Origin: an uncultured Chryseobacterium sp.
GTDB lineage: Bacteria > Bacteroidota > Bacteroidia > Flavobacteriales > Weeksellaceae
Reading direction: 5' to 3'
DNA length: 64,000 nucleotides
NCBI GenBank assembly: GCA_913778085.1
Contig: CAJYXJ010000015.1
Span: 53,690 to 117,689 of the forward strand
Shown here in pieces: positions 28,679-53,939 of the stretch; the stretch's first letter is position 1, and each line of letters opens with the position of its first letter. Position numbers and translations under genes: made by a program. The notes under the pieces were generated by a model, which was given only the letters and a program-made list of their open reading frames with translations, did not search any database and was not told the origin of the DNA.

Positions 28679-28742
28679 GTAAATATAAAAATACCTTTTC
28701 ACGACATCTTTTTTTTGAAGGCAAATATTTTCTGTTTATAAA

Positions 28743-28805
28743 TCAGACATTTCCTTTCAGCATCTTATATGCAGCTTTTGAAAAACCTCCCATCCATTGA
28801 CTGAG
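28743..28805 (-). pseudogene. Short protein remnant
   Basis: An open frame of about 20 codons on the minus strand reads ILSQWMGGFSKAAYKMLKGN, then V and a stop. It has no start codon and continues into the T run of a terminator. It seems to be the C-terminal end of a small lost protein. Confidence 0.3.
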
Positions 28806-28811
28806 TATTAC

Positions 28812-28871
28812 AAAAAAACTTCCCGGAATACGGGAAGCTTAAAAAACTGTTTAAAAACGAATGGAAATTAA
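28812..28871 (-). ncRNA. Predicted small RNA unit 2 (with TATGA-N6-TCATA box)
   Basis: On the minus strand, TAGTTTTATA (28875-28884) serves as the -7 box. About 60 nt follow, without an ORF, ending in CTTCCCG-loop-CGGGAAG (28819-28837) and seven T residues (28812-28818). The inverted repeat at 28907-28922 lies exactly 22 bp upstream of the box. The 5' end is an estimate. Confidence 0.55.
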
Positions 28872-28906
28872 TCCTATAAAACTACTTTAAAATTTTTTAT
28901 AGTGCC

Positions 28907-28922
28907 TATGACCGAAATCATA
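28907..28922 (-). promoter_or_regulatory. TATGA-N6-TCATA box, copy a
   Basis: TATGACCGAAATCATA: a 5-bp inverted repeat with a 6-bp spacer, perfect in both arms. A gap of 22 bp separates it from the -7 box at 28875-28884. Probable activator site for unit 2. Confidence 0.6.
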
Positions 28923-28978
28923 AAAAAACCTCTCATGATGAGAGGCAAACTTACTGAGAATAAATATTGTGTTATTGC
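28922..28978 (-). ncRNA. Predicted small RNA unit 3 (with TATGA-N6-TCATA box)
   Basis: On the minus strand, TATTTTTACA (28982-28991) is the -7 box. About 55 nt follow, ending in CCTCTCATCATGAGAGG (28929-28945), a near-perfect palindrome, and seven T. The box copy b (29014-29029) lies 22 bp upstream. No ORF of note. Confidence 0.55.
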
Positions 28979-29013
28979 TTCTGTAAAAATATAAATCATT
29001 ACACAGAGATGTT

Positions 29014-29029
29014 TATGACCGAAATCACA
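29014..29029 (-). promoter_or_regulatory. TATGA-N6-TCATA box, copy b
   Basis: TATGACCGAAATCACA: one mismatch in the second arm, and the same spacer (CCGAAA) as copy a. It is 22 bp from the -7 box at 28982-28991. Confidence 0.55.
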
Positions 29030-29033
29030 ACCG

Positions 29034-29102
29034 AAAAAAATCCCCATATTTCTATGAGGATAAAAACTAATAACCATGAAAACTCAATAAACATGAGAAT
29101 CG
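29034..29102 (-). ncRNA. Predicted small RNA unit 4 (CATGGTTATTAG family)
   Basis: On the minus strand, TATATTTG (29106-29113) is a consensus -7 box. The transcript contains TTGAGTTTTCATGGTTATTA (29062-29087 region), then an ATCCTCATA-loop-TATGGGGAT hairpin (29040-29061) and seven T. A 26-nt block, 29062-29087, is identical to 29502-29527 in unit 5. Its 15-nt core is complementary to the translation start of the P63C gene. Confidence 0.6.
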
Positions 29103-29180
29103 GGGCAAATATATTTATTTTATTTATTAAAATTTATGATTAGAATCGTCTAAACATTCTATTTTTCACACAATATTGAT

Positions 29181-29188
29181 TAAATTTG
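29181..29188 (+). promoter_or_regulatory. -7 box of the 75-aa gene
   Basis: TAAATTTG matches the consensus exactly; it overlaps an in-frame TTG at 29186 and rules out that start. Confidence 0.6.
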
Positions 29189-29206
29189 CGCAAACTATTA
29201 AACGCC

Positions 29207-29434
29207 ATGACATTCAGCGAAGCAATAAAACAGAAAAAAAATATTTTGAAAGACACGAGTGAGTTTACGAAAACCCTATACGACTATGTTATCATTCCTG
29301 CACTGGAAGAAGAAGGCAGGAAGTATATGGAAGATTTCAGAAAGTCACCTTCCCAGTTTTTTGATGAGAGCTGCAAACCCTACAGCAGCAATGATCGATT
29401 TAAAGTATTTCTTTTCCCTAAAAACCAAAACTGA
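29207..29434 (+). CDS. Unknown 75-aa small protein
   Basis: Starts at ATG 29207 (MTFSEAIKQKKNILKDTSEF). Mostly helical and charged in the first half (YDYVIIPALEEEGRKYMEDF), then a short tail ending VFLFPKNQN. No signal or membrane segment. I do not recognise the family. It is a lone gene with its own promoter, set between predicted small RNA units on the other strand. Confidence 0.55.
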   Translation: MTFSEAIKQKKNILKDTSEFTKTLYDYVIIPALEEEGRKYMEDFRKSPSQFFDESCKPYSSNDRFKVFLFPKNQN

Positions 29435-29471
29435 AAACGCAAACATATTAGTATCAGACAGTTTTGTCCAC

Positions 29472-29541
29472 AAAAAAATCCCCGTATTGCTACAGGGATT
29501 AAAAAACTAATAACCATGAAAACTCAAATTAAACATGAGTG
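29472..29541 (-). ncRNA. Predicted small RNA unit 5 (CATGGTTATTAG family)
   Basis: On the minus strand, TACATTTG (29546-29553) is a consensus -7 box. The 26-nt block at 29502-29527 is identical to that of unit 4, and is followed by an ATCCCTGTA-loop-TACGGGGAT hairpin (29478-29499) and seven T (29472-29478). Sequences outside these parts differ from unit 4, so the block and hairpin are the conserved core. Confidence 0.6.
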
Positions 29542-29751
29542 ACTGCAAATGTATGAAATGTTCACCTTAAATGCACCTATTAGTCATATATTTTTTTTCT
29601 ATTAACATAACTTTACCATAGATTAAAAATACTTTAATATATGATAAGTATAGAGATGATTCAGTACGACAGGTATTTAGGATATTTATATTGATTTTTA
29701 GATACTGGAACTGTTAACGGATAAATTAAACGATCATTTAAAAAATGTTAA

Positions 29752-29787
29752 AAGAAATAAGCTCTCATTTCTGAGAGCTTATTTCTT
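29752..29787 (-). terminator. Terminator of the 1256-aa T9SS protein gene
   Basis: AAGAAATAAGCTCTCA (29752-29767) and TGAGAGCTTATTTCTT (29772-29787) form a perfect 16-bp stem with a 4-nt loop, 19 nt after the gene stop codon. Confidence 0.85.
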
Positions 29788-29805
29788 TATTGTTACCAGT
29801 AAAAT

Positions 29806-32800
29806 TTATTCTTTAATAAATTTCTTTTGGATGGTACCTTTAACATCGTCAATATCGATTACATAAATTCCGTTAATTAATGCATGGACATCAATCTTGT
29901 TATTCAGGATAATTCCTGAAGATATCATTTGGCCTGTAGCACTATAAATCTTATAGTTTGCTCGCGGGCTGATATTCTTAACGTTCAATACTGTTTTTAC
30001 CGGGTTAGGGTAAATCAGGATATCGGTCTGGTTTACTGAATTAGGCACAGGAAGCTTGGAAATTCTTACCGTGTAATCCTCTACTTCACCGTTTGCGAAA
30101 TTTGTACAGTTTACAGGAATCGCATCTTTTGACATGGCTACTCTCATTACTACATATTTATAGTCTGTCAGGCTGATGAAAGCATCTGCAGGCACGGCAA
30201 ATGTTCCGCTTACCGTCTGATCATTATTCGGTCCGGAAACAAGGATCCGTTCGTTAATATCGAAGTACCCGTTTCTGTTGAAGTCGATCCACACGGCAAC
30301 TCCCGCATTGGATGAGGTAGTTTTATCAATACTGATCTTGTTATCCACAGATCCCTGAATCAGCTGGATAAAGTTGTTGGTTACACCGGTATAATCGGTA
30401 TAATTCGATGCAACTGACGTATTCGTCATTACCGGTTTGCCGTTAGGAGTAACGGTAACTTTCGAGATATAATTCGCACTTGCCGTCGTAGCATGCATCT
30501 GACAGTATACAATGGTTGGTGTTGTAAACAGATACGGAAGCGTATAATTGCCCGGCGTTCCGCTGCATACATTAGCTACCTGCATTTCGTACTGAGTCAA
30601 TTCCAACAGGCCGGTTAAGGTAATGGTGTTGGTATTTGAAGTTACCGTCGTCCAGCTTGGAATCCCTACTTTTCTGTATCGCAGGATATAAGTTGCACCC
30701 GGGAACGGAGCCCATGTTACCTGTGCTGTTGTTGTGGTGATATTTGTAATCGTTAATCCCGGAGGCGCAATTTCACATGTTCTCTCCGTAGTAAATACTT
30801 TAGGATTAGACCAAGGGTTCAGCGTATTCTCATTATCACACATATTGGCGATCTGCACCTCATAGGAAGTGAACACATTCAATCCTCCAAGGGTGTAGGT
30901 ATTGGCAGGAGCAAGTGGTAAAGGAATATTGGCACTCCATCCTCCGGTACCGCTTCCTACGATTCTGTATCGTAAGAAATAATGCGAGCTTACCGCCAGC
31001 GGCGACCATGTAATCAGTGCCGACGTTGTCGTAATATTACTGATCGTTACGTTGGGAGGAGTAGGATCACATCTTGTGGTAAATGTGCTGTGAGAAAAGA
31101 CTCCTGTATTCGTATTACAAACCGCAGCTACTTCCACTTCGTACTGGGTAGCCGAAGAAAGATTATTCAGCGTAGTGGTATTGGTGGTTGCAGGATAAGG
31201 TGCCGCTGCAACATTTACCTGCTGCCATCCGGAAGCCGGAGAAGTAATCGGTCTGTATCTTACAATATAAGTTGCTCCACCGATGTCCTGGTTCCAGGTT
31301 AATACAATCGAGTTATGTGTAGGCGTGCCCAGCGTTACCGTAGGAGTTGCATTATTACAGATTCGTAAATTGATATTATCAATAGCTGCAGGAGGCTGTG
31401 TACCGCCGGAAGAGTCGTTTCTCCATTCAAATACAAGACGCATGGTCGTTCCTGCAAAACTTGAAATATTCAGCGTAGGGTTAAGGAAGTTTTGCCATGT
31501 AGACTGCTGGTTATAGTTATTACCAATCTGAATTCTTCCTGTGCCTGCTGTAATCTGTGTTCCGGAAACAGGCATAAAGTTTGCCGGTACCAGCCATACT
31601 CTAAGGTAATCCCAGGCTGATTCCCCAACTGCTTTCCAGTCGAATGAGAACGTAGCCGTAGTAGTTCCTGCCGGTACGGCGATATCTCGGTAAGCATGCA
31701 CAACGCTTGATGATGAAATATTATATCCGTTAGTAACTCCATTATCATTGGAAATATAAAGTGAGTTTCCGGTATTCCCGGTAGCACTTCCATAAGTCCA
31801 TTTGTTTACCTGAGTTCCGTTGGTATATCCCAAATCGCTTCCGGTAGTAAAAGGCTGGATATAAGGAATAGTAGCCGGGATCTGTGTCGTCGTAAACACA
31901 GGAGCCGCTACCCAGAAACTTCTGTCCAAACCGGCACATACGGAACGAATCCATAGATAATACGTTGTATTAGGCGTTAAAAGTGTCAGGTTCAGAGTCG
32001 TCCCTGCAGATGTACCTGTAGGTACGGTAGCTGAGGTAGGTGCTGTATTTACTGTAGAAAGATAGTATTGATATCCTCCAACCGGAGCCGGCGTAGGGCC
32101 CGTCCAGGTAACCGTTGCTGTAGTACTTGCTACTGCACTTACCGTAATGTTGGTCGGAACCTGACATGTAGGAATACTCAGGTTGATGTTATCAATAGCT
32201 GCGGCAGGCTGTGTGCCTAATATACCATCGTTTCTCCATTCGAAAACAAGACGTACCTGCTGACCTGCAAAACTGCTGAGATTTACTCCCGTATTGAAAT
32301 AATTCTGCCAGGTAGTTTGCTGGTTAAAATCGCCACCAAGCTGGATTCTTCCTCCTCCTGTCGTAATCTGGGTTCCGGCAACCGGTGTATAAGACATCGG
32401 TACAAGCCACACCCTTAAGTAATCCCACCCGGATTCTCCAAAGCCTTTCCAGTCAAAGGATAAGGTAGCGTTGGTAGATCCAGAAGGAACAATGATATCC
32501 CTGAAAGCATGAACCACACTTGAAGCTGAAGTGTTATAACCATTGGTAACGCCGTTATCGTTGGTAATGTACAGTGAGTTTGCAGGATTTCCCGTCACTG
32601 CACCGTAGAACCATACATTCGGCTGCCCCAAGCTTGTCAGCTGAAGATCGTTACCTGTAGAGAAGTTCTGCACATAAGGTATTGTGGTAGGTATCTGCGT
32701 TGTTGAGAAACTCTGGCCCGCAATCCATACACTTTTATTGGTAGCACTACATACGGAACGTACCCACCAGTAATAAGTGGTCGTCGGAGCCAACGCTACC

Positions 32801-33576
32801 GTAACACTTGTTCCGGCGTTGGCTACCCCTGCTGTGGCAGCTGTAGGGGCTGTCGAGCTTGTACTTATGTAATACTCATACCCGTTGGCAGGCGCAGAAG
32901 AAGGAGCCGTCCATGATAAAGCCGCACTGTTGGTAGTGATGCTCCCTACTGATGTTGCAGTAGGCGGGAAACAACTCGGTACGCTCATATTGATGTTATC
33001 AATAGCGATTGGCGGCTGTGTTCCGAAGAGATCGTCATTTCTCCACTCAAACACCAGACGCATTGTGGTTCCGGCAAAAGAACTGATGTTCAAACTGATC
33101 GTGCTGTACGTCTGCCAGGCAGACTGGCCGGTAAATTCAGTTCCGATCTGGATCCTTCCCCCTCCGGCAGTGATCTGTGTTCCCGTTGTAGGTGTGAAAG
33201 TCGCAGGGACCATCCATACTCTAAGGTAATCCCATCCGGTTTCCCCTACTCCTTTCCAATCGAATGAAAAATTGGCCACCGAAGCTCCCGTCGGAATGGT
33301 AATATCCCGGTATGCCTGTACAACACTGGTATCACTGGTTGAATAAGCATTGGTAGTTCCGTTTGTGTTTGAAATGTAAAGCGAGCTGCCTGTATTTCCC
33401 GTTACAGCACCGTAAAACCACTTATTGGTCTGGGTTCCGTTGAGCAACGTAAAATCATTAGCCGTATTAAAATTCTGCGAATACGGCAGCGGCGCAGCCT
33501 GCCCATAGGCATCTGGAATAGCGCCCAGATTTAACAAACACAGAAGAAGTACTAAAAAAGTAGAAATTTTCTTCAT
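29806..33576 (-). CDS. Large secreted multidomain protein with T9SS C-terminal sorting domain
   Basis: A 1256-residue protein with a signal peptide (KISTFLVLLLCLLNLGAIPD). Three similar modules of about 170 residues begin near 30, 300 and 575. Each has PYxQxFxTxxDxxxxN, WFYGAVTGN, SLYISN, FSFDWKGxGExxWDYLRVW and LVFEWRND, consistent with choice-of-anchor J (MAM-like) domains. Fibronectin type III-like domains separate and follow them. Near residue 1160 is ANGEVEDYTV, a domain seen before T9SS tails, and the last 75 residues (ILIYPNPVKTVLNV onward) are a type A sorting domain. It should be exported by T9SS and is probably an adhesin or surface protein. Confidence 0.9.
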   Translation of the reverse strand: MKKISTFLVLLLCLLNLGAIPDAYGQAAPLPYSQNFNTANDFTLLNGTQTNKWFYGAVTGNTGSSLYISNTNGTTNAYSTSDTSVVQAYRDITIPTGASVANFSFDWKGVGETGWDYLRVWMVPATFTPTTGTQITAGGGRIQIGTEFTGQSAWQTYSTISLNISSFAGTTMRLVFEWRNDDLFGTQPPIAIDNINMSVPSCFPPTATSVGSITTNSAALSWTAPSSAPANGYEYYISTSSTAPTAATAGVANAGTSVTVALAPTTTYYWWVRSVCSATNKSVWIAGQSFSTTQIPTTIPYVQNFSTGNDLQLTSLGQPNVWFYGAVTGNPANSLYITNDNGVTNGYNTSASSVVHAFRDIIVPSGSTNATLSFDWKGFGESGWDYLRVWLVPMSYTPVAGTQITTGGGRIQLGGDFNQQTTWQNYFNTGVNLSSFAGQQVRLVFEWRNDGILGTQPAAAIDNINLSIPTCQVPTNITVSAVASTTATVTWTGPTPAPVGGYQYYLSTVNTAPTSATVPTGTSAGTTLNLTLLTPNTTYYLWIRSVCAGLDRSFWVAAPVFTTTQIPATIPYIQPFTTGSDLGYTNGTQVNKWTYGSATGNTGNSLYISNDNGVTNGYNISSSSVVHAYRDIAVPAGTTTATFSFDWKAVGESAWDYLRVWLVPANFMPVSGTQITAGTGRIQIGNNYNQQSTWQNFLNPTLNISSFAGTTMRLVFEWRNDSSGGTQPPAAIDNINLRICNNATPTVTLGTPTHNSIVLTWNQDIGGATYIVRYRPITSPASGWQQVNVAAAPYPATTNTTTLNNLSSATQYEVEVAAVCNTNTGVFSHSTFTTRCDPTPPNVTISNITTTSALITWSPLAVSSHYFLRYRIVGSGTGGWSANIPLPLAPANTYTLGGLNVFTSYEVQIANMCDNENTLNPWSNPKVFTTERTCEIAPPGLTITNITTTTAQVTWAPFPGATYILRYRKVGIPSWTTVTSNTNTITLTGLLELTQYEMQVANVCSGTPGNYTLPYLFTTPTIVYCQMHATTASANYISKVTVTPNGKPVMTNTSVASNYTDYTGVTNNFIQLIQGSVDNKISIDKTTSSNAGVAVWIDFNRNGYFDINERILVSGPNNDQTVSGTFAVPADAFISLTDYKYVVMRVAMSKDAIPVNCTNFANGEVEDYTVRISKLPVPNSVNQTDILIYPNPVKTVLNVKNISPRANYKIYSATGQMISSGIILNNKIDVHALINGIYVIDIDDVKGTIQKKFIKE

Positions 33577-33820
33577 AAGTTATCATTTAATATTAATCCT
33601 TGCAAATCTAATCTGTTTTTTAATAATTTACAGTATAAATCGTTATAATTTTTAAAGAAATTACACCGAAAACACTTATTTATAAAGTAAACGTTCAATC
33701 ATTTGCTTTTATTGCTTCATTAATAGCGTAAATAAGTAAGCGGTCATGAGATCCAGTCTAAAAACAGCATTAACCGGATTAAAAACATCCCCTCTTATTT
33801 AGAACATTTGACATTTAAAA

Positions 33821-33906
33821 AAAAATAAGGTCTCCTTTTTGTAAAGGAGACCAAAAAAAACACAAATGATGAAAAAAATTTTATTGAATCAATTATTATT
33901 AATCCA
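33821..33906 (-). ncRNA. Predicted small RNA unit 6 (with TATGA-N6-TCATA box)
   Basis: On the minus strand, TATTTTTACA (33910-33919) is the -7 box, identical to that of unit 3. The transcript contains the block ATTTTTTTCATCATTTGTGT (33856-33879 region), then a perfect 10-bp stem GGTCTCCTTT/AAAGGAGACC (33829-33852) and a T-rich tail. Its 24-nt block recurs at 35511-35534 beside another terminator. Box copy c lies 22 bp upstream. Confidence 0.6.
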
Positions 33907-33941
33907 TGATGTAAAAATAAGATTGCTTTACAACATATGAT

Positions 33942-33957
33942 TATGACTGAAATCATA
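33942..33957 (-). promoter_or_regulatory. TATGA-N6-TCATA box, copy c
   Basis: TATGACTGAAATCATA: perfect arms, 22 bp from the -7 box of unit 6 (33910-33919). This is 5 kb from copies a and b, with the same spacing. Confidence 0.6.
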
Positions 33958-34158
33958 ACAGTGTTTTTTTTATAAAAAAATTAGAATTTTTTTTAATATA
34001 AAATTAAGGTTGATCTGAATAATTTAATTACAAAACTCCATTTAACGGGTATAAAATCAATTTATTTTTAGGAATAAAATATAGAATTAATTCTATTAAA
34101 ATATATAATTTTTAAAAATAAATTGATTTAGGTCATGTTATTTAAATATTAGGTTAAG

Positions 34159-34166
34159 TACTTTTG
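34159..34166 (+). promoter_or_regulatory. -7 box of the glycosyltransferase gene
   Basis: TACTTTTG, an exact consensus match, 6 nt before the first ATG at 34173. Confidence 0.6.
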
Positions 34167-34172
34167 CGCCTG

Positions 34173-35016
34173 ATGATAAATCAAATGAAAGTGAATAAGA
34201 TATCTTTACTGGTTGCAAATTACAACAATGGAAGATATTTCAAAGATTGCTATGATTCCATTGTTTCACAGACTTACGAAAATTGGGAAGTAATTATTGT
34301 AGATGACGCCTCAACTGATAATTCCGTGGATATTATTAAAAAGCTTATTGCAGGATAGCCGTTTTAAGTTTTACCAGAACAAAACGAACAAAGGATGCGG
34401 CTATACCAAAAGAAAATGCCTGGATCTTTCCACTGGTGAGTACTGTGCTTTTATAGATCCCGACGATGCGCTTTTCAGCGATGCCGTTGAGTGTCTGCTT
34501 GACGAATTATGTAAAAGCAGTAAGGTTATTGCCGCTTATTCCAAGTTAGTTTTCTGTGATGAAAACCTTAATCCACAGGAAATTTTCTCAAAAATAAGAC
34601 AGATTCACAATAACAAATATTTCTTTAATATCCCTATTCAGATCCAGCCCTTTTTTGCTTTTAAAAGAAATGCGTATATGAAAACATCCGGAATTAATCC
34701 CATTCTTAAAAATGCCGTAGACCAAGATCTTTATCTTAAGCTTTTGGAAATCGGAGATGCAAAATTTGTAGACAAAGTTTCTTATAAGTACCGGCTCCAT
34801 TCCAATGGAATATCCCAGCACGGTGCCAAACAGAGCGCAAAGGAATCTTTTGCCCGCGTGATCCACGAAACCATGCGTAGAAGAAACATTACCGTCATTA
34901 ATGGAAATCCGGTTCCTGTAATTTATACAAATGCCAAAGACATTTATAACCTTCTTAATTATCAGACGAAAATTCCCTACAGGCTGATGAATAAGATAAG
35001 AATGGTCTTCCAATAG
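34173..35016 (+). pseudogene. Family 2 glycosyltransferase, frameshifted
   Basis: The N-terminal frame (34173-34358) holds the GT2 start ISLLVANYNNGRYFKDCYDS, then VIIVDDASTDNS, and stops after DIIKKLIAG. The second frame, open from before 34340 to 35016, continues LLQDSRFKFYQNKTNKGCGY, the GEYCAFIDPDDALF donor-site DxD region, and NAVDQDLYLKLLEIGDA. A one-base change in or near the A-run at 34336-34341 would join them. So the gene is either inactivated or has a sequencing error. An intact version would transfer sugars to a surface glycan. Confidence 0.75.
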
Positions 35017-35054
35017 TCCCACACGGATTTTCGCCTCAATTAAAAACAAATAAA

Positions 35055-35084
35055 CTCCTCAAAAATTTTGAGGAGCTTTTTAAA
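35055..35084 (+). terminator. Terminator after the glycosyltransferase
   Basis: CTCCTCAAAA (35055-35064) pairs with TTTTGAGGAG (35066-35075), then CTTTTT. It may also help end the convergent lipoprotein gene. Confidence 0.75.
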
Positions 35085-35109
35085 AGGTATATGGGTTGGA
35101 AAAAGTGTT

Positions 35110-35388
35110 TTATCTTGCAGAATCGGTTCTGGTTCCTCCGTTTGAGCCATTGGTCTGGTTCGGGGTAGTACTTCTCTGATTATTCTGGGTATTACCCTGA
35201 TTCATCGTGCTGTCAGCAGCAGCACCCGTAGAATCCGAAGACATGGCGCCGGCTCCTGAAGTATCAGACATTGTCCCTGATGTACTGGCAGAATCCGCCA
35301 TCGTATTGTTTTCATTTTGTGTTTCCTGCTTCTTGCAGCTCACTGCAAAAAGGCTCAATCCCAGCATTAATAGCATTACTTTTTTCAT
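35110..35388 (-). CDS. Small low-complexity lipoprotein
   Basis: A 92-residue protein. The signal MKKVMLLMLGLSLFAVSC ends in a lipobox Cys, followed by KKQET and a tail made almost wholly of Ser, Thr, Asn, Gly, Ala and Asp (for example DSASTSGTMSDTSGAGAMSS). Such tails are disordered. It should be anchored in the envelope; the function is unknown. Its promoter has a consensus TAATTTTG and, 21 bp upstream, the same TATGA-N6-TCATA box found before three predicted small RNA units, which suggests common regulation. Confidence 0.75.
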   Translation of the reverse strand: MKKVMLLMLGLSLFAVSCKKQETQNENNTMADSASTSGTMSDTSGAGAMSSDSTGAAADSTMNQGNTQNNQRSTTPNQTNGSNGGTRTDSAR

Positions 35389-35417
35389 ATAATAATTTTT
35401 GATGTTTAATATTGAAT

Positions 35418-35425
35418 CAAAATTA
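35418..35425 (-). promoter_or_regulatory. -7 box of the lipoprotein gene
   Basis: TAATTTTG on the minus strand, an exact consensus match, about 30 nt before the start codon. Confidence 0.65.
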
Positions 35426-35446
35426 TGCTTAAAAAAACGGGATTTC

Positions 35447-35462
35447 TATGAGCCTGATCATA
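35447..35462 (-). promoter_or_regulatory. TATGA-N6-TCATA box, copy d
   Basis: TATGAGCCTGATCATA, with the repeat extending to CTATGA/TCATAG. A gap of 21 bp separates it from the -7 box of the lipoprotein gene. It is the only copy before a clear protein-coding gene. Confidence 0.6.
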
Positions 35463-35482
35463 GTCAGAAAAAAATATTTAAA

Positions 35483-35534
35483 TAAAATAGCCTCCTTTGC
35501 AGGAGGCCGTAAAAACACAAATGATGAAAAAAAT
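35483..35534 (-). terminator. Terminator with conserved 24-nt block
   Basis: GCCTCCT-TTGC-AGGAGGC (35490-35507) with a T-rich tail on the minus strand. The adjoining block 35511-35534 is identical to 33856-33879 in small RNA unit 6. It ends the transcript that carries the 45-aa ORF at 35579-35716, or is itself part of a small RNA. Confidence 0.6.
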
Positions 35535-35578
35535 CTATTCAGAGTGCACTGAACAGAACTTGTACGCAGCTTATACTG

Positions 35579-52166: not shown

Positions 52167-53939
52167 TTATTTTTTCATCACTTTAATGGACTGAGATCCT
52201 TTTTCCGTATTTACCTTTAAGACATAAATTCCGGAAGGAAGTGCTCTCATATCCACAGATCCTTTTTCGGCATTGATATTTTCATTGGCCAGTTTCTGTC
52301 CGGCAGCACTGTAAACTTCCACATTGTTGATTTTCGTATCATTGCTGATGTTGATAAAGTCAACAACCGGATTCGGGTAATAATTCAGTTTAGTCTTAGC
52401 TGCTACATCCTGAGTTGCCAAGACAATACTGATAAATTCATAACTTCCCAGATCAGGGGTAATGGCATTCCGTGTAATGCCATCGGCATCTACCGTCACA
52501 TCGGCTACGAAAGTACCTTTGTTATCCAATGCCGCATTTCCTGAGGCTGCCAGGTGAAAATCGGTAGCAGATACAAATACCGGAGAAACGTTCAGTGAGT
52601 TCACATTCCCTCCGAAGCCTAACTGCAATTCTCCCAAAGTAGTTCTTGCGATGGCCCCTATATAGCCCAGTGCAGTACCTGATGAAAAATAATTGTTATA
52701 ATTCATATTAGAAAATACCGTATCGGCAGTACCGGCATAGATGGCATAACGGTCTCCCGTCTGGGTCTGCTTATTTACAAATATATTATTTCTAAGATCA
52801 ATAGCTCCCACAGCAGTAACACCACTTGTTACATTGAATGCGGAAGGTCTTCCGGCAACTGTCTGGTTAGCATCCATGACCACGGTGTTGTAATAAATTC
52901 TATACCCGCCTCCGGAAACTATAATAATTCCGTTACCATTATCAGAAGCTCCTCCGCCTAAAGCATATCCATATCCGGATACACCGTTGATCGTATTATT
53001 ATACACCAGCATATTTGATGCAGTTCCCGTGCAGCTTAAATATAGCCCGGCAGCACCGTAACCTGCGGTATTGGTATTGGAGACATCCGATATTTTATTA
53101 TTAAAAATCAAACCGTTTGTTGCAGCTGCTCCGACCAAAATTCCGGCTGCGGTGGCTGTAGAACCGAGGGTAACTCCCGCAATAACGTTTCCGCTGATCT
53201 CAAAATTTTTGGCATTCTGTACGGCAAGTCCCCGATATCCCATTTTATCCGTGGCCACTGCAGATCCTATAACATTATTTTTAATCATGAATCCCGTATC
53301 CGTATTGGTGGCATTTCCGATAGCAAAGATGGCATTCTGAGCTTTGTTAAAGGAATTATTTATACTGCTGAAATTATTATTGGAAACTTCAGCGGCGGCC
53401 CCCAGTGTGGATCCGGACACAATAATTCCGACGATTGTACCGGAAGAATTGGCTCCGTAGATATTGGTGTTTTTAAAAGTGGCATTCAAAGCCCCATCCG
53501 TGGCGGTACTTGCTACCCAGATAATAACCGGACTTCCCCCTGTAGTATACGTATTGGTAATGGTTAGGTTTCGGGAAGAAGAACCGTTATTACTTCCATC
53601 AATGGTTACATTATCGGCTCCGTTAAGTTTTATGGTGGCCACCGTATCCGCACTTGAAATAGTAGCATTTACTCCGGCAGCCGGTTTAATGAGTACGGAT
53701 GCGTAATTACTGTTACCCGAGCCGTTTCCATTCAGAACGGCAGAGGCAGTTTCTGTTGTATTCCCTGTTACGTTAATCGTGATCGCTCCCTGGTGTAAGC
53801 CTCCATTAATAGCATCGAATGCTGCTTTTAATGTAGTATATGTTCCTATCGCAGTACCGGCAGTTGCGGTAAGGCTGATCTGGGCATTAGTACCTACGGA
53901 TGCAGCTGCTGTTATTAAACAAAATAGAATTTTTCTCAT
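52167..53939 (-). CDS. Secreted beta-helix protein with T9SS C-terminal sorting domain
   Basis: A 590-residue protein. Signal peptide MRKILFCLITAAASVGTNAQ. Residues 20-480 are rich in Asn, Gly, Thr and short repeated strands (ITINVTGNTTETASAVLNGN, NNVIGSAVATDKMGYRGLAV, FEISGNVIAGVTLGSTAT), the look of a right-handed beta-helix as in pectate-lyase-like proteins. The tail (KLNYYPNPVVDFINI, VYSAAGQKLANEN, LPSGIYVLKVNTEKGSQSI) is a type A T9SS domain. Extracellular; the substrate is unknown. Confidence 0.85.
   Translation of the reverse strand: MRKILFCLITAAASVGTNAQISLTATAGTAIGTYTTLKAAFDAINGGLHQGAITINVTGNTTETASAVLNGNGSGNSNYASVLIKPAAGVNATISSADTVATIKLNGADNVTIDGSNNGSSSRNLTITNTYTTGGSPVIIWVASTATDGALNATFKNTNIYGANSSGTIVGIIVSGSTLGAAAEVSNNNFSSINNSFNKAQNAIFAIGNATNTDTGFMIKNNVIGSAVATDKMGYRGLAVQNAKNFEISGNVIAGVTLGSTATAAGILVGAAATNGLIFNNKISDVSNTNTAGYGAAGLYLSCTGTASNMLVYNNTINGVSGYGYALGGGASDNGNGIIIVSGGGYRIYYNTVVMDANQTVAGRPSAFNVTSGVTAVGAIDLRNNIFVNKQTQTGDRYAIYAGTADTVFSNMNYNNYFSSGTALGYIGAIARTTLGELQLGFGGNVNSLNVSPVFVSATDFHLAASGNAALDNKGTFVADVTVDADGITRNAITPDLGSYEFISIVLATQDVAAKTKLNYYPNPVVDFINISNDTKINNVEVYSAAGQKLANENINAEKGSVDMRALPSGIYVLKVNTEKGSQSIKVMKK

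Follow-up and report, generated by a model that had tools for sequence, protein, structure and literature searches.

A palindromic box before predicted small RNA units and a lipoprotein gene in Chryseobacterium, a probable class II operator of a multiplied Crp/Fnr-superfamily group

Organization of the locus

The window, as the whole stretch of DNA analysed here is called, comprises 64,000 nucleotides from an uncultured Chryseobacterium sp. (positions 53,690 to 117,689 of contig CAJYXJ010000015.1, assembly GCA_913778085.1), the source genome amounting to 4.63 Mb in 82 contigs. The element under study is the 16 bp palindrome TATGA-N6-TCATA, hereafter the box, which stands 21 or 22 bp before the −7 boxes of minus-strand promoters predicted for three small noncoding RNAs, units alpha, beta and gamma, and for a small lipoprotein gene. 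As argued below, the box is probably the operator of one or more activators of the Crp/Fnr superfamily belonging to a group with ten copies in this genome. A box lying 21-22 bp before a −7 box of the form TAnnTTT is called a class II site, and the reversed pattern served as the control. The features on which the argument rests are the following.

28811-28872, minus strand: unit beta, a predicted noncoding RNA of about 60 nt with the core AATTTCCATTCGTTTTTAAACAG; terminator stem at 28819-28837
28877-28884, minus strand: −7 box TAGTTTTA of unit beta, read directly
28907-28922, minus strand: operator 1, exact TATGA-N6-TCATA, 22 bp before the −7 box of beta
28922-28979, minus strand: unit alpha, a predicted noncoding RNA of about 58 nt with the core CTCAGTAAGTTTGCCTC; terminator stem at 28929-28945
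28984-28991, minus strand: −7 box TATTTTTA of unit alpha
29014-29029, minus strand: operator 2, TGTGA-N6-TCATA, one mismatch, 22 bp before the −7 box of alpha
29033-29101, minus strand: family B RNA, predicted, with a 5' hairpin, single-stranded TTTTCATGGTTATTAGTTTTT and a terminator stem at 29040-29061
29135-29150, minus strand: operator 5, degenerate with two mismatches, 21 bp before TATATTTG
33817-33907, minus strand: unit gamma, a predicted noncoding RNA of about 91 nt, family A; terminator stem at 33829-33852
33912-33919, minus strand: −7 box TATTTTTA of unit gamma
33942-33957, minus strand: operator 3, exact, 22 bp before the −7 box of gamma
35110-35388, minus strand: gene for a small lipoprotein of 92 amino acids (MKKVMLLMLGLSLFAVSC-KKQET..), downstream of operator 4
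35418-35425, minus strand: −7 box TAATTTTG of the lipoprotein gene, 21 bp from operator 4
35447-35462, minus strand: operator 4, exact, 21 bp before the −7 box TAATTTTG

An initial reading made from the letters alone (the sequence-only reading) had placed the same box at operators 1 to 4; it is exact at three of them, and operator 2, with the sequence TATGACCGAAATCACA, departs from it by one mismatch. The spacers given there, 22 bp for the three small RNA units and 21 bp for the lipoprotein gene, are those found on the minus strand, and operator 5 had been overlooked. For operator 2 an alternative −7 reading, TATATTT at 20 bp, exists.

The box alone is not enriched in the window: at up to one mismatch it occurs four times against a shuffled mean of 2.82, and 33 of 100 shuffles reach four, which is not significant. 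The combination of the box, a spacer of 21-22 bp and TAnnTTT occurs three times with an exact box, once with one mismatch and once with two, all within 28.9-35.5 kb, whereas the corresponding shuffled means are 0.0, 0.03 and 0.47. None of 200 window shuffles produced four sites with this geometry at up to one mismatch. The geometry of the four sites is not due to chance, in agreement with the sequence-only reading, which had judged a constant distance at four sites unlikely by chance.

The half-sites and −7 boxes are conserved and the spacers between them drift. Alpha was aligned from 11 genomes, beta from six of these 11 alpha-bearing genomes, and gamma from the six fetched stretches in which it was found. 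In gamma, ten of ten half-site positions (operator 3), three of the 22 spacer positions, seven of the eight −7 box positions and 82 of the 87 downstream positions are invariant. The corresponding numbers for beta are 9/10 (4/5 and 5/5 in the two halves of operator 1), 2/22, 7/8 and 39/69, and those for alpha are 8/10 (operator 2), 1/22, 6/8 and 32/64. In operator 5 the proximal TCATA half is conserved in all but one of the six rows of the alignment, the exception being the poorly aligned G048.

Enrichment, spacing and position of the box

In the source genome there are 25 exact boxes, compared with four matches to the reversed pattern. For this genome a −7 box TAnnTTT was sought at 20-23 bp from exact boxes, and it was found in 13 of 50 box-directions (12 of the 25 boxes) and in none of those of the control, which has four boxes only; the background rate of TAnnTTT is 1.4% in the window and own-genome loci and 3.3% in intergenic stretches. 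Across 119 genomes of the genus, the box followed by TAnnTTTG at 10-38 bp was found 637 times, against 40 times for the reversed pattern. Among 150 sites listed from these 637, the spacer is 21 bp in 78 and 22 bp in 43, together 121; the next commonest, 31 bp, accounts for seven, and no other spacing exceeds this number. A second, smaller cluster, made up of 22 of the 150 listed sites, has spacers of 28-33 bp, which place the box upstream by about one more helical turn; it includes two recurrent sequences at 31 and 33 bp. Fifteen genomes from other families of the order gave 13 matches against three reversed, numbers too small to weigh.

In the promoters of alpha, beta and gamma the −7 box ends in A, and this A is kept in every row of the three alignments. 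The sequence-only reading had taken the missing final G as expected of activator-dependent promoters, a view that does not hold in general, because 110 of 149 distinct class II sites in the fetched loci end in G and 37 in A.

The housekeeping −7 box of Flavobacterium psychrophilum, TAnnTTTG, is described as spanning −12 to −5 (PMC9723704). With the same span, the centre of the palindrome falls at −41.5 for a spacer of 21 bp and at −42.5 for one of 22 bp; the start of unit beta was placed by this rule. Among Escherichia coli FNR-activated promoters with a known start, the site lies at −41.5 ± 4 in 19 of 23, and the gene of the small RNA FnrS has its FNR site at −42.5 (as given in PMC3688515). 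With starts predicted from spacer and −7 box in this way, the box sits at the class II position of Crp/Fnr activators, near −41.5.

Predicted small RNAs

As judged from sequence, alpha, beta and gamma each have a predicted promoter of their own, a terminator and no conserved open reading frame (ORF): alpha and beta hold no ORF of note, and gamma holds only a two-codon ATG frame before its terminator. The T-run of the alpha terminator extends into operator 1. The beta core was found in six genomes, with a fold z score of −3.33 for a slightly longer stretch. In the five other alpha-bearing genomes the beta core carries one to nine mismatches, and its box either shows three mismatches or is missing; beta has decayed in these genomes, in its box as in its core. 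Matches to the beta core in three fetched loci (L116, L119 and L120) were rejected as RNA copies, as by eye they look like coding sequence. Gamma (fold z −2.56) is predicted to consist of a 5' hairpin, single-stranded TTTTTTTCATCATTTGTGTTTTTTTT and a terminator, the stretch between hairpin and terminator, which contains CATCATTTGTG, being mostly unpaired. The family B unit follows the same plan, with single-stranded CATGGTTATTA. Two further copies lie in the window.

29472-29541, minus strand: the second copy of the family B RNA; no class II box precedes it at up to two mismatches
35480-35540, minus strand: another 3' module of the family A RNA, including a terminator; it ends a short way upstream of operator 4 and lacks a class II box of its own

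At gathering scores, Rfam 15 yields one tRNA only in the window, and a relaxed threshold applied to 28700-29700 and 33700-34100 gave sub-threshold matches far below gathering scores. Covariation in the terminators is weak, with one two-sided change each in alpha and beta and scores as high in 85 and 78 of 500 shuffles, respectively; there is too little variation in these stems for covariation to weigh either way.

The source genome holds nine family A cores, one of them being itself the start of a lipoprotein-like gene, and four family B cores. The fetched loci were chosen for a box, an RNA core, the lipoprotein or a group gene, so that proportions among them are biased and are not genome-wide rates. 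In these loci a class II box at up to two mismatches lies upstream of 20 of 42 distinct family A cores (control 0) and three of 27 family B cores (control 1). In the source genome alone it lies upstream of two of eight family A cores, one of the eight being a gene start, and of one of four family B cores. Family A cores with their terminators also recur as 3' modules, some behind other sequences and lacking a class II box (35480-35540; L043).

In both families the single-stranded core is exactly complementary to A-rich, start-like sequences, among them ACACAAAUGAUGAAAAAA and ACUAAUAACCAUGAAAA. The family A seed matches the start of one gene of the source genome (L047). When homologues of this gene were compared, no conserved antisense target for the seed was found: the match reaches 18 of 19 positions in one (G056) of 22 other genomes with a homologue and at most 15 of 19 elsewhere, and six alpha- or gamma-bearing relatives have no homologue at E ≤ 1e-10.

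The lipoprotein and other putative targets

The lipoprotein behind operator 4 matches no Pfam or NCBIfam family at E ≤ 0.001. Matches to it were found in 52 of 149 genomes of the genus (E ≤ 1e-3). Thirty lipoprotein loci were fetched among 55 listed matches, and in 24 of them, that of the window included, a class II box stands at 21-22 bp. The five weakest loci (L157-L161) have none, and another (L154) has an exact box with no −7 match.

Among 143 fetched sites, a sample biased as described above, 82 lead into ORFs, 32 reach a known RNA core, or a terminator ahead of any ORF, and the other 29 do neither. The regulon proposed by the sequence-only reading, tiny transcripts plus an envelope lipoprotein, stands as far as the shared and conserved architecture goes; it does not consist mainly of tiny RNAs. 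Other class II sites lead into genes of the regulator group described below, other small lipoproteins, a protein with KGG stress repeats and further ORFs, and also into an iron-sulfur protein that reads as a succinate dehydrogenase/fumarate reductase subunit.

Two further genes lie in the same region. On the minus strand, 29806-33576 encodes a 1256-amino-acid protein that carries a Por secretion tail in addition to fibronectin type III, MAM-like and GEVED domains, and lies between the RNA units. On the plus strand, a family 2 glycosyltransferase (34164-35016) reads as two overlapping ORFs, 34164-34358 and 34303-35016, in different frames, and it is therefore probably frameshifted in the assembly.

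The Crp/Fnr regulator group

The source genome contains 25 matches to the cyclic nucleotide (cNMP)-binding domain and 16 to HTH_Crp_2, of which 14 are over the cut-off. Ten of its proteins form one group, as defined by alignment, recognition helix and profile search score. Both members scanned for domains (L007 and L005) exceed the cut-offs of PF00027 and PF13545 and have the architecture of the Crp/Fnr superfamily, a cNMP-binding domain followed by a Crp-type helix-turn-helix; none of four members scanned reaches an NCBIfam cut-off. The best sequence matches of the regulator among solved structures are CRP, apart from one match to the cNMP domain only. The best 79 loci of the group in named genomes, a selection that is no measure of its reach, belong to Chryseobacterium and Epilithonimonas.

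The recognition helix of the group is of the type GLRVETVIR, with the pattern xVETxIR. Aligned with the E. coli CRP sequence, all ten proteins have Glu and Arg at the positions of CRP residues 181 and 185 (Glu174 and Arg178 of the first row), and the position of CRP Arg180 is replaced, mostly by Val. Seventy-eight of the 79 listed loci read ETx[VI]R, the remaining one (L226) having a broken frame read. The CRP site is TGTGA-N6-TCACA, and Arg180 of CRP reads its outer G, where the box has A; FNR has Val before the Glu of its recognition helix. A helix that keeps Glu and Arg and has Val at the Arg180 position would thus fit a box that keeps the inner TGA and has A for the first G of TGTGA. Glu181 and Arg185 are among the base contacts described for CRP (PMC12531629), and the main base contacts of FNR are given as Glu209, Ser212 and Arg213 (PMC4505428).

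Co-occurrence of the group and the box

Across the 119 genomes, group copy number (E ≤ 1e-25) and box-site number are correlated (rho 0.56, p 3e-11), whereas the reversed control does not follow copy number (rho 0.03). The mean number of box sites is 1.5 in genomes with no member, 1.9 with one or two, 4.9 with three or four and about 7 with at least five. A site at 21-22 bp with TAnnTTTG is found in none of the six genomes without the group and in eight of the 14 with one or two copies. In the source genome, four group genes out of ten have a class II box directed at them, exact in three cases (L005, L007 and L014) and with one mismatch in the other (L015), and next to a fifth group gene the class II box points at a small lipoprotein gene directly before the regulator gene (L006; the site at 870 on the minus strand of this locus corresponds to 112131 of contig C20 of the same genome). 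Small lipoprotein genes behind class II boxes were also seen near group genes in named genomes (L185, L186 and L190). Among the 79 listed loci, an exact box lies within 350 bp upstream in 20, and a class II box (up to one mismatch, in either direction, within 350 bp) in 19, with none for the reversed control. The likely binder of the box is therefore, as far as helix and co-occurrence indicate, the Crp/Fnr group itself. The single transcription factor of the sequence-only reading is not supported, the group having ten related proteins with near-identical recognition helices and with the box before some of their own genes.

Several observations weigh against this assignment. More than half of the exact boxes of the source genome (13 of 25) lie outside the class II position, several of them inside ORFs. 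The correlation with copy number takes no account of shared ancestry. Genomes free of the group still average 1.5 matches at 10-38 bp, compared with 0.67 for the control, and a match with a 20 bp spacer occurs in G006, which is among them; of the genomes with one or two copies, six lack a 21-22 bp site. In only seven of the 79 listed loci is a class II box directed at the group gene; in 15 such a box is directed away from it, and 59 are without an exact box within 350 bp. Autoregulation would accordingly be confined to some members. As for the proteins, the group is neither CRP proper nor FNR proper: the residues that contact the cyclic AMP phosphate in CRP, Arg82 and Ser83, are not kept, with Tyr in ten of ten proteins and Pro in six of ten there, and the N-terminal cysteine cluster of FNR is absent, the first 30 residues being free of cysteine in nine of ten proteins and holding one in the tenth.

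The half-sites fall into two classes. In the lipoprotein family of the window the boxes end in CTCATA in all 18 exact class II cases, whereas those pointing at group genes of the source genome and those of alpha, beta and gamma end in RTCATA; family A copies elsewhere show both classes, those in L073 and L077 ending in CTCATA. The paralogs may hence not share all of their targets.

Proposed mechanism and alternative explanations

We consider it quite probable that the palindrome is the class II operator of one or more Crp/Fnr-superfamily activators from the ten-copy group, through which the small RNAs, the lipoprotein and other genes would be switched on. In response to a signal, a dimer of one or more group proteins would bind the palindrome and, from the class II position, would touch or recruit RNA polymerase at a promoter of the Bacteroidetes type that is used by the housekeeping sigma factor. 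The active regulator would turn on alpha, beta, gamma, a family B unit, the small lipoprotein, some of the regulator genes and others, and the RNAs may pair with A-rich start regions of mRNAs. A wider proposal is that Chryseobacterium has a Crp/Fnr network of its own, with one operator common to many paralogous activators and with small RNAs of families A and B, directed against start codons, as the layer on which these activators converge; it is tentative, and we regard it as rather doubtful. If it were true, such RNAs would allow mRNAs to be silenced in a manner that suits a phylum lacking Shine-Dalgarno sequences.

The identity of the binder can be challenged, since the 25 cNMP-binding and 16 HTH_Crp_2 matches exceed the ten group members and leave room for another Crp/Fnr protein outside the group, or for an unrelated palindrome-binding protein that merely correlates with it. 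A correlation is not binding, relatedness inflates it, and the boxes that point at group genes are few among the listed loci. Such a binder is nevertheless improbable: the group-free genomes have first-look candidates for proteins of this kind, yet none of them has a 21-22 bp site, in the source genome a box points at four group genes out of ten, and the recognition helix of the group fits the half-site. That the four sites are a chance alignment of AT-rich palindromes with −7-like sequences can be given practically no credence, even though the box alone is not enriched in the window, in view of the shuffles that retain the geometry, the enrichment and spacer peak across the genus, and the conservation of half-sites around a drifting spacer. 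Nor is it at all likely that the box serves repression, or is an operator for either side, instead of being a class II activator site; the palindrome is symmetric, −7-like matches flank one own-genome box (L090) left and right, and certain boxes upstream of group genes serve either direction, but a repressor site would not need the spacer of 21-22 bp that is seen in 121 of the 150 listed sites.

The nature of the short units raises a separate question. Rather than trans-acting RNAs they could be attenuated leaders, the 3' portions of longer transcripts or very small coding genes, as family A cores are also found as 3' ends that follow other sequences (those at 35480-35540 and in L043) and some frames of the family B copies give short peptides when read. 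We hold this to be unlikely, though to be taken seriously. Beta ends at a terminator with a convergent gene beyond it, neither alpha nor beta has an ORF of note, the ATG frame of gamma has two codons only, the family B copies differ by 2 nt in length, which shifts the frame, and invariance spans the whole of the gamma RNA.

Comparison with known systems

To our knowledge, regulatory sites and small-RNA circuits are poorly known in flavobacteria. No description of the box, the regulator group or RNAs of this kind was found in the open-licence literature, subscription papers lying mostly outside the search, and the view of the sequence-only reading that the regulon looks unreported fits this within that scope. 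A defined operator with a defined position, a candidate regulator group and named small-RNA outputs makes the proposal directly testable. It would also offer a natural case of many related activators with near-identical recognition helices, bearing on how duplicated regulators stay distinct.

The box is one base per half away from the CRP site of E. coli. The ten proteins keep the Glu181 and Arg185 that are described as base contacts in CRP (PMC12531629) and differ from CRP in that Arg180 is replaced and Arg82 and Ser83 are not kept. With E. coli FNR and FnrS the system shares a dimer site of the Crp/Fnr type at the same position before a small RNA gene (as given in PMC3688515), and with FNR it shares Glu and Arg among the main base contacts (as given in PMC4505428). 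It differs from them in the box, which is TTGAT-N4-ATCAA for FNR and TATGA-N6-TCATA here, in the lack of an N-terminal cysteine cluster, in the ten paralogs, in the Bacteroidetes −7 box and in RNAs without an Rfam match.

The Bacteroidetes are described as a phylum without Shine-Dalgarno sequences (PMC6847099), and the small RNA GibS of Bacteroides has a long single-stranded seed that pairs over start codons (PMC7366714). Pairing is only proposed for the RNAs described here, and their presumed seeds, unlike that of GibS, lie between a 5' hairpin and a terminator; the word crp is absent from the main text of the GibS paper (PMC7366714). The flavobacterial small RNA Rfp18 and the promoter motifs reported for F. 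psychrophilum provide a further parallel, with the −7 box in common, and the main text of that paper has no word beginning with crp, fnr or palindrom (PMC9723704). Overall, the proposed mechanism is of a known kind, and with its operator, its multiplied regulator group and its RNA outputs the system seems to represent a new version of it.

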